Shown: piece by piece, positions 31,633 through 35,351 of the stretch | Position numbering within the stretch: position 1 is the stretch's first letter | How the letters are laid out: the number at the start of each line of letters is the position of its first letter | Assembly (NCBI GenBank): GCA_005772765.1 | Contig: SXIR01000172.1 | Coordinates: 1 to 42,152 of the forward strand | Reading direction: 5' to 3' | Length of the DNA stretch: 42,152 bases | Source of the DNA: Actinomycetota bacterium | GTDB lineage: Bacteria > Actinomycetota > Acidimicrobiia > IMCC26256 > PALSA-610 | The notes under the pieces: model-generated | Databases searched by the model: none | What the model was told of the DNA's origin: nothing | The model's input: only the letters and a program-made list of their open reading frames with translations | Program-made: the position numbers and the translations under genes

Positions 31633-32457
31633 TCAGCGGCCGGTGAAATCCGGCGGGCGTTGCTCGACGAAGCTGAGCATGCCCTCTTGGAAATCCTTGC
31701 TTGCCATGAGTGGTACGAGCTGCAACAGCACGTGATCGCTGTGGGCCTGGAACGTCTCGTTGAGTCCGTGGCGGAAGAGTCGTTTCATCGCTTGGATGGC
31801 GAGCGGGGCGTTCGCAGCGATCTCGTGCGCCCACTCGGTCGCGGTCGCGAGCGCGTCGTCGACCACATCATTGACGATCCCCAACTCCTTCGCACGCTCC
31901 GGGTCGAGGTCGCGTGCGAGAAAGGAGATCTCGGCGGCCCGGGCCCAGCCGACGAGACGCGGGAGATACCACGTTCCGCCGCTCTCGGGCACGATGCCGC
32001 GCTTGGCGAACCCGGGCACGATCCGCGTGTTGCGCGTCACGATCCGGATGTCGCACCCGAGTGCCAGGTCGAGGCCGTAGCCCGCCACGCCGCCGTTGAT
32101 GGCGGCGATGATCGGCTTGTCCATTTCGTGCAACACAACGGTCGGCAGGTCGCGCAGGTTCGCGTTGACGGCGCCGCCGCCCTGGCCGACGTTGCCCCCG
32201 CCGCCGATGCCCGTCCCCGCCATTGCGTCCTTGATATCGAGGCCCGCACAGAACCCGGCGCCTGCGCCGGTCAGGACCACGCAACGCACCGATCGGTCCC
32301 GTTCGGCCCGCTGGACCGCCTCGGTCAACTCCTGGAGCATGCGCACCGAGATCGCGTTGCGACGGTGCGGGCGGTTGAGGGTCAGGGTCGCGACGTGGCC
32401 CTCGACGGCGTAGAGGACCTCGGGGTCCGTCGAAGGCTGCGTTTCGCTGGGCGTCAT
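31633..32457 (-). CDS. Enoyl-CoA hydratase/isomerase family protein
   Basis: A 274-residue crotonase-fold enzyme. The oxyanion hole segments are FCAGLDIKD and INGGVAGYGLDLALGCDIRI. IVPESGGTWYLPRLVG contains the second catalytic Glu region. A Gly-rich insert (GTGIGGGGNVGQGGG) follows the first segment. It is probably in beta-oxidation or a related CoA pathway. It is convergent with the DEAD helicase (9-bp gap) and divergent from the riboswitch-controlled ATPase. Confidence 0.9.
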   Translation of the reverse strand: MTPSETQPSTDPEVLYAVEGHVATLTLNRPHRRNAISVRMLQELTEAVQRAERDRSVRCVVLTGAGAGFCAGLDIKDAMAGTGIGGGGNVGQGGGAVNANLRDLPTVVLHEMDKPIIAAINGGVAGYGLDLALGCDIRIVTRNTRIVPGFAKRGIVPESGGTWYLPRLVGWARAAEISFLARDLDPERAKELGIVNDVVDDALATATEWAHEIAANAPLAIQAMKRLFRHGLNETFQAHSDHVLLQLVPLMASKDFQEGMLSFVEQRPPDFTGR

Positions 32458-32530
32458 GGTCTGGTTCTATCCCATCGCCGTCGGGTTCCGCACGGCGAGG
32501 CCACCAGGCAGCGACGAACCGAAAGAGCGG

Positions 32531-32560
32531 CTGGCAATTCAGGAAACCATCTTCTATAGT
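32531..32560 (+). promoter_or_regulatory. Promoter of the riboswitch-P-type ATPase transcript
   Basis: A -35-like CTGGCA (32531-32536) and a good -10 TATAGT (32555-32560) are 18 bp apart. The predicted transcript start near 32567 falls immediately before the first riboswitch helix, which supports both calls. Confidence 0.6.
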
Positions 32561-32566
32561 GAGGTC

Positions 32567-32684
32567 TCCGAAGGGGAGTATCCCGCAAGGATCCGGTTCG
32601 TCAGTCCGACCCGCCAGGGTCCGGGCCGGATCGCCACGGCGATTGCGTGGTGGGGGAGACCTTCACGATCTGTGAAGGATTTCC
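32567..32684 (+). ncRNA. yybP-ykoY manganese riboswitch
   Basis: Family hallmarks are present: GAAGGGGAGTA at 32570-32580 (P1 5' strand plus the conserved GGGGAGTA), CGTCA at 32599-32603 in the loop above the ATCCGG (32591-32596)/CCGGAT (32626-32631) stem, and the 3' GGGGGAGACCTTC ending at 32664. P1 pairs GAAGG (32570-32574) with CCTTC (32660-32664). The same CCTTC lies in a competing hairpin CCTTCAC (32660-32666)/GTGAAGG (32672-32678) that hides the ribosome-binding GAAGGA 5 nt before the ATG. So ligand binding should free the ribosome-binding site. The family senses Mn2+ and often controls cation ATPases. Confidence 0.92.
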
Positions 32685-35351
32685 ATGGAATCGCCCCACG
32701 CGCACCCGATCGATCACGTCCTGCGATCGTGCGACACCTCACCCCTCGGATTGGACGCCGAGGAGTGCGCCCGACGACTCGGCCGTGACGGGCGCAACGA
32801 GCTGAGCGTGTCTGGCAGCAAGACCGCGCTCGCGACGTTCGTCGATCAGTTCCGTGCGGTGATGGTGTTGATCCTCATCGCGGCATCGGGATTGTCGTTC
32901 GCGTTGGGCAAGGTGCTCGAAGGCGGCGCGATTGTCGCCATCGTCATACTGTTTGGCGTCCTCGGATTCGTGCAGGAGTTCCGTGCCGAACGCGCGATCG
33001 CGGCGCTGCGCGACATGGCGGCGCCGGTTGTCCGAGTGACTCGAACGGGACGACTCGGCGAAGTTCCGGCGGGCGAACTCGTCGTCGGCGACATCGTGCA
33101 CGTCGAAGCCGGCAGCATCGTGCCGGCCGACTTGCGTCTGATCGAGGTCGCTGGACTCCGCGCGCAAGAGGCCGCGCTCACTGGCGAGTCCGAACCCGTC
33201 GACAAGATCGTCGATGTCGTTGACGCCGACGCGGCGCTGGGCGATCGCCGGAACCTCGCGTACACCGGAACTCAGATCACCTACGGCCGCGGAATCGGTG
33301 TCGTCGTCGCGACCGGGATGACAACAGAACTCGGCAAGATCGCTTCGCTCTTGGCCCAAGCCGCCGCCAGCTTGACCCCGCTGCAGGAGCGTCTCGATCG
33401 AGTCGGCAAGCAGTTGGCTGCTGGCGGTTTGGTCGTGGCGCTGGTCGTGATGGCGCTCGGCGCAATGGCTGGTGAGGATTTCGGCGATCTTGTGCTGACT
33501 GCGATCAGCGTTGCGGTCGCGGTGATCCCAGAGGGTCTGCCGGCCGTCGTCACGTTCACGTTGGCGATTGGCGCCCAACGCATGCTGCACCGAGAAGCGC
33601 TGATACGCAAGCTTCCAGCCGTGGAGACGCTCGGTTCGGTCACGGTGATCTGTTCCGACAAGACGGGCACGCTGACCCAGAACGTCATGACCGTGACTGC
33701 GATCGAAACGTTCTCCGGTCGTTCGACACTCGACGACGAAATGCGCATCGATCCGTCGGCAGTCGCCGTCGTGGCGGCGGGCAGTTTGTGTAACGACGCC
33801 GACCTGCAATTCGTGGACGGCGACACCGTTGCAATCGGCGATCCGACGGAGACCGCGTTCCTGGTCGCCGCGCAACGAGTCGGGATCGATGTCGCCGACC
33901 TACGAAGTCGGGTGCCGCGCTGCGCTGAGCGACCATTCGACTCGGAGCGCAAACGCATGAGCACCGCGCACCCGTCACTCGGTGCGGACGCGCCGACGGC
34001 GTTGGCCGCGTTGCCTCGTGATCGGGCGGTTGTCTTCGTGAAGGGCGCGGTCGACGGCATGCTCGCTCACGCAACCGGCGTCTGGACCGGATCGAATGTG
34101 GTGCCGCTCGACGATCCCGCGCGCTCCCGGGTTCTCGAAGCGAACGACGAGTTCGCTCGGAGCGGTCGGCGGGTGCTCGGTGTCGCGTTTCGAACGATTG
34201 GCGCGATATCCGATGACGTCGACTACGAGTCGGAATTGGTGTTGCTCGGGCTGGTCGCGATCGTGGATCCGCCGCGGCCGGAAGTGCGCGATTCGGTGGC
34301 GACGTGCATTTCGGCCGGCATTCGGACCGTGATGATTACCGGCGACCATCCAGCGACCGCACTCGCGATCGCTCGCGATCTCGGAATCGCGCGTCGAGAC
34401 CGAGTCGTGACGGGTGTGGAACTCGAAGGGCTGAACGACGGCGAGCTCAAATCGACGGTGGAGGACGTCGACGTCTTCGCCCGTGTGGCACCCGAGCACA
34501 AGCTGCGGATCGTCGAGGCGTTGCGTCGCGCGGGTCACGTCGTCGCAATGACCGGTGATGGCGTGAACGATGCCCCAGCCTTGAAGACCGCGGACATCGG
34601 CGTTGCGATGGGTATCACCGGAACTGATGTCTCGAAGGAGGCTGCCGACGTCGTGCTCCGAGACGACAACTTCGCGACCATCGTCGCAGCAGTCGAAGAG
34701 GGCCGGGTCATCTACGACAACCTTCGACGCTTCGTGCGTTTCGCCGTGGCCGGAAACATCGGCAAGATGGTGGTGATGGTCGGATGGCCGATTCCGTTTC
34801 TCGTGACCGGGGACACCGTTGACGCCGCAGTGGCGCTCCTGCCGCTGCAGTTGTTGTGGCTCAACCTGATGACCGACGGACTGCTCGGGCTTTCGATGGG
34901 CGTCGAGCCTGCCGAGCGCGGAGTCATGCGTCGGGCCCCAAATCGACCTGGTATGAGCATCTGGGCTGATGGCCTCGGCGTGCAAGCAGTGTGGTCCGGT
35001 GTGCTGATCGGGGCGATCGCGCTGGCCCTGGGGATCGGATACCACGAAGCCGATCGACCGGAGTGGCAATCGATGATCTTCATGAGCCTCGCAGTGCTGC
35101 AGATCTTCCAAGCGCTTGCGACTCGATCGAGTACTGCATCGCTCCGCCAACGCGGTTGGCGCACGAACCCCGTGATGCTCGGCATCATCGCCATTGTCGC
35201 GATCCTGCAACTGCTGGCGGTCTACTCGCCGCTGCGTGGATTCTTGGATCTCGAACCGCTGCGCGCCGTGGACCTGGCGGTTTGCGTCGCGGCGGGCGTC
35301 GGGCTGTTCGCGTTGCTCGAGATTCACAAGAGCCGATTGCGACGGCGGTAA
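32685..35351 (+). CDS. P-type cation ATPase (P2A-like), probable Mn2+ exporter
   Basis: An 888-residue ATP-driven cation pump. An N-terminal cation-ATPase segment (residues 1 to about 50) is followed by TGES (166-169, actuator), PEGLP (282-286, helix 4 ion site), [11 protein letters not shown] with phospho-acceptor Asp325, KGAVDG (nucleotide domain), [10 protein letters not shown] (hinge), and [17 protein letters not shown] in helix 6 with Asn and Asp ligands. It is of the Ca2+/Mn2+ type, and the Mn2+ riboswitch immediately upstream points to Mn2+ export when the metal is in excess, as for YoaB-type pumps. Divergent from an enoyl-CoA hydratase and convergent with the S11-like gene. Confidence 0.94.

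Follow-up and report, generated by a model that had tools for sequence, protein, structure and literature searches.

The window, the whole 42,152-nucleotide stretch of DNA that was analyzed (contig SXIR01000172.1 of an Actinomycetota bacterium), carries a gene for a type IIA P-type ATPase preceded by a structured leader. Within this leader lie a promoter-like site, a predicted aptamer and a hairpin that would hide the ribosome-binding site (RBS), followed by a Shine-Dalgarno (SD) sequence (Table 1).

Table 1. Coordinates of the ATPase gene and of the elements of its leader in the window.
Feature	Position	Strand	Basis or remark
Sigma-70-like promoter, CTGGCA-18-TATAGT	32531..32560	+	Consensus match only
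Aptamer domain, yybP-ykoY (Mn2+) type	32570..32664	+	Model R2, 59.3 bits, E 7e-13; model R1, 65.1 bits
P1, 5' strand GAAGG	32570..32574	+	Pairing kept in 40/40 sequences, double changes at the first pair
L1, GGAGTA	32575-32580	+	Directly after the P1 5' strand
P1.1, 5' strand TCCC	32581..32584	+	Partner ~32652-32655; fold and compensatory changes in 4/4 pairs
P3	32590..32632	+	Window fold; covariation at P3a and P3b
P3a	32590-32600/32622-32632	+	Fold and covariation
L3 bulge, 7 nt, TCAGTCC	32601-32607	+	Reads CGTCA together with CG of P3a
P3b	32608-32612/32617-32621	+	Fold and covariation
P4 hairpin, GCCACG/CGTGGT	32633..32651	+	Window fold
OFF-state hairpin, CCTTCAC(gatct)GTGAAGG, hides RBS	32660..32678	+	Pairing probability 0.69 per pair, full leader
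Shine-Dalgarno, GAAGGA	32674..32679	+	5 nt 5' of ATG 32685
Type IIA P-type ATPase, PMR1/LMCA1-like, 888 aa	32685..35351	+	Domains, TIGR01522, LMCA1 homology, motifs

The promoter-like site is the sole one in 281 bases (0.1 expected in shuffled sequences), and it contains the TATAGT that the sequence-only reading had placed as a -10 element ahead of the aptamer. Transcription is predicted to start at ~32566-32568. The order of elements in the aptamer is P1 (GAAGG/CCTTC), GGGGAGTA and the CGTCA loop. The 3' strand of P1, CCTTC at 32660-32664, is also the beginning of CCTTCAC (32660-32666), which pairs with GTGAAGG (32672-32678) in a 7-bp hairpin whose second strand includes the core of the SD. 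Since both helices use CCTTC they are mutually exclusive, and the letters and coordinates are as previously described. The leader fold was more stable than those of shuffled sequences (z = -3.1), and the pattern AAGGGGAGTA...CGTCA...GACCTT occurred once in the 3.6 Mb genome (0 occurrences of the reversed pattern). An upstream pairing of GAGGUCUCC (~32561-32569) with GGAGACC (~32655-32661) was considered and rejected, as the predicted transcript start removes most of it.

An alignment of 40 sequences (A3) folded to P1, P1.1, P3a and P3b, with compensatory (double) changes in 13 of the 20 consensus pairs, and by this comparison the aptamer architecture is established. A shifted register of P1.1, with 32654-32657 as partner, is also possible. 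The P4 hairpin kept its position across relatives while varying in sequence. P2, which with a four-way junction belongs to the family architecture and is present in some relatives such as L046, L087 and L097, was not visible in the window. GGGGAGTA was invariant in 40/40 sequences, though the search pattern itself accounts for part of this. The same holds for the metal-site sequences of L1 (GGGGAGUA) and L3 (CGUCA), found in the window and in 40/40 sequences, whose letters were also in the pattern so that their invariance is partly selection; the flanking helices were free of the pattern, and the Escherichia coli alx leader carries both L1 and L3 independently of it. We take L1 and the CGTCA loop to be the Mn2+ site of the yybP-ykoY family, as in the L. 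lactis structure.

The public Rfam model of this family, RF00080, gave no match in the window at the gathering score, none within 32400-32800 at E<=5 and, genome-wide, none at E<=10. The sequence-only reading had named a score below the family threshold as a ground for refutation. The element indeed does not reach the membership cut-off of 45 bits, which is the detection threshold of one model rather than a biological property, but the refuting force of this result did not hold, because the model fails on the proven E. coli members: mntP scored 41.6 bits and alx was not matched. It also missed 19 of 20 actinobacterial relatives, the single match scoring 23.6 bits. As RF00080 is this insensitive to alx and mntP, a low Rfam score cannot refute family membership. 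In the Rfam 15 RF00080 control on these two leaders (alx, mntP; L034:227-349, L035:1462-1558) the consensus structure was displayed without P1.

Purpose-built covariance models behaved differently. R2, constructed from 24 TerC-linked actinobacterial elements, excluding the window and any ATPase-linked element, matched the window (Table 1), a second copy in the window's genome (48.6 bits) and, at 41.7 bits (E 2e-8), the leader of alx. A further model, R1, likewise matched the window, alx (42.4 bits) and mntP (18 bits, E 0.004). The matches of both models to alx, and of R1 also to mntP, tie the actinobacterial class to elements for which a response to Mn2+ has been shown (PMC9603457 and works cited there). 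A covariance model shared with proven members thus upholds the assignment of this leader to the yybP-ykoY family, which is established by comparison.

Relatives of the element were found via DNA, pattern and model searches; a search for related loci using the ATPase alone returned none. Near-full-length homologues with 70-75% identity were identified by DNA search of 61 related genomes in G028, G038 and G046, each preceding a homologous type IIA P-type ATPase, together with a match of 70% identity located before a TerC gene in G050. Within the order, pattern search recovered the element in 10 of 58 genomes, and across the phylum in 28 of 396 (reversed pattern, 0); R1 found elements in 29 of 61 genomes (the window's and its relatives'). 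With a stricter pattern, 84,980 species genomes yielded 96 stretches, and almost every title named Actinomycetota; the few others included an Alcanivorax MAG and an Acidobacteria MAG. In total, more than 100 relatives were found, nearly all from Actinomycetota and mostly 5' of genes for PMR1-like ATPases and TerC. Among 97 non-redundant elements, 38 were ATPase-linked and 31 TerC-linked, so that 69 of the 97 loci have a target from a Mn-export or Mn-related family. On sequence grounds, given the single pattern occurrence in the genome and the homologous RNAs before homologous genes, the element stands far above chance expectation.

Judged by comparison, the relatives keep P1 and the RBS hairpin mutually exclusive. 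In most loci the P1 3' strand can pair with the SD, as in CCTTCGG/CCGAAGG, CCTTCAACTG/CAGTTGAAGG and CCTTCGATC/GATCGAAGG, with CCTTCAC/GTGAAGG in the window. The mean OFF-helix score over the 97 non-redundant loci was 18.33, compared with 14.90 +/- 0.20 for chimeras (the strand of one element joined to the leader of another) and 9.59 for shuffled leaders. At 68 of 79 loci the two extension pairs matched, whereas shuffling the partners gave 44.0 +/- 2.2 (maximum 52 among 5000); loci were thinned for these shuffle tests, yet some relatedness remains among them. A coincidental overlap, with SDs naturally resembling the complement of CCTTC, would account for a GAAGG core that is SD and complement at once and for the excess of chimeras over shuffled leaders. 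It is extremely unlikely, as the extension outside the SD core covaries and the window itself has AC/GU instead of the common GG/CC. Helix scores, covarying extension pairs and aptamer covariation together favor the translational ON logic that had been read from the sequence, and riboswitch action via RBS access has been described in reviews (PMC9331361, PMC9334652).

A readout by transcription termination within the same RNA family appears very unlikely for the window. Three relatives (L053, L054 and L070) have GACCTTT...AAAGGTC followed by T-runs, and judging from these terminator-like sequences the phylum has both translation and termination readouts. No terminator-like site was found in the window leader, however, and the hairpin ends in the SD, shortly 5' of the ATG, without a T-run. 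The full leader was predicted to fold into the OFF state (-65.0 kcal/mol, versus -53.3 kcal/mol with P1 forced), and a leader cut before the SD, just after P1, folded to the aptamer with P1 (-48.8 kcal/mol). A predicted OFF state 11.7 kcal/mol below the forced ON state would require action during transcription or a large ligand effect; we infer from these modeled energies that the switch may be set while the RNA is made.

The protein encoded downstream matches E1-E2 ATPase and cation ATPase domains. It carries DKTGT at 325, PEGLP (M4) at 282 and NLMTDG (M6) at 727, and its E1-E2 domains with DKTGT, PEGLP and NxxxD in M6 identify it as a type IIA pump. The best solved structure was that of Listeria LMCA1 (lmo0841; E 7e-163), and homology to the PMR1/SPCA and LMCA1 Ca2+/Mn2+ ATPases extends over the whole length, although the best model, TIGR01522 (PMR1), scored 638 bits and thus below its cut-off of 798 bits. 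The M5 position that we take to be equivalent to Glu771 of SERCA is apparently Lys (GNIGK), which points to a single ion site like that of PMR1. PMR1/LMCA1-like pumps transport Ca2+ and/or Mn2+. By analogy the ATPase is likely a Mn2+ (or Ca2+/Mn2+) efflux pump; Ca2+, Mn2+ or both as the pumped ion are indistinguishable by sequence, and it could be a Ca2+ pump. Reviews include P-type ATPases among Mn exporters, for example MgtA of S. pneumoniae (PMC9331361, PMC9334652).

Taken together, the ATPase leader is very probably a yybP-ykoY-type Mn2+ riboswitch that turns translation on upstream of a likely Mn2+ exporter, with the binding of Mn2+, the ON direction and the pumped ion all inferred from proven members. 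At low Mn2+, the P1 3' strand (CCUUC plus AC) would pair with GUGAAGG, leaving the SD hidden and expression OFF. At high Mn2+, the ion would bind between L1 and the L3 loop, and the bound aptamer would hold P1 closed, freeing the RBS (ON). The PMR1-like pump would then be made and would most likely export Mn2+, perhaps Ca2+ too. Besides Mn2+, alkaline pH also elicits a response from the alx and mntP elements (PMC9603457), so a family relative that senses pH or another divalent ion has to be weighed; we consider this very unlikely, as L1 and the CGTCA loop are kept and the targets belong to Mn-exporter families.

The proposed Mn2+ switch resembles several known systems. With the E. coli alx and mntP leaders (RF00080) it shares the aptamer core (GGGGAGUA, CGUCA, GAGACC), the translational ON logic and, through its relatives, a TerC-type target (alx); it differs from them in its 4-bp UCCC P1.1, the apparent lack of P2 and its being unrecognized by RF00080. 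The mgtA and yoaB switches of Streptococcus and Lactococcus act by transcription termination, whereas the window element hides the RBS instead. Martin 2019, as cited in PMC9334652, describes Mn2+ riboswitches before type II P-type ATPase genes, and the window presents the same riboswitch family 5' of the same type of gene. A yybP-ykoY leader before terC (cg2157) of C. glutamicum, the transcript of which was detected by RNA-seq (PMC3890552), is likewise actinobacterial with a TerC target. It scored 49 bits and was detected by the then-current Rfam model, in contrast to the class in the window.

Elements also preceded genes for M48 (HtpX-like) peptidases at seven loci (L070, L108, L109, L121, L144, L149 and L162), where a P-type ATPase sometimes comes next, and genes for zinc-ribbon TFIIB proteins at L040, L094, L098 and L144. 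HtpX, an M48 peptidase, is reported to have co-purified with the B. subtilis TerC protein MeeF (PMC10550928), the only report found in a literature search joining yybP-ykoY and HtpX.

The yybP-ykoY family is already known, and the window adds a new member to it. For the little-studied Actinomycetota the locus provides a candidate Mn2+ pump and a Mn2+ switch with good support, but the actinobacterial branch, which is under-detected, is with its additional targets more interesting than the switch itself. Rfam's model passes over a branch that is common within a major riboswitch family, which leaves Mn regulons of the phylum under-annotated. We tentatively propose that this large branch of Mn2+ riboswitches, hardly visible to Rfam, may also turn on M48 (HtpX-like) membrane peptidases and small TFIIB-type zinc-ribbon proteins, which would link Mn excess with membrane-protein quality control.

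The second copy in the window's genome (L195:2722-3084, - strand, contig C226) lies before a Zn_ribbon_TFIIB gene (82 aa); with GACCAAC as the 3' strand, P1 looks weakened in this copy. Other genes found 3' of elements encode PGPGW proteins, Na/Ca exchangers, M50-CBS and baeRF family 3 proteins and a KUP K+ transporter, the last four kinds at loci L079, L105, L165, L083, L058, L057 and L067.
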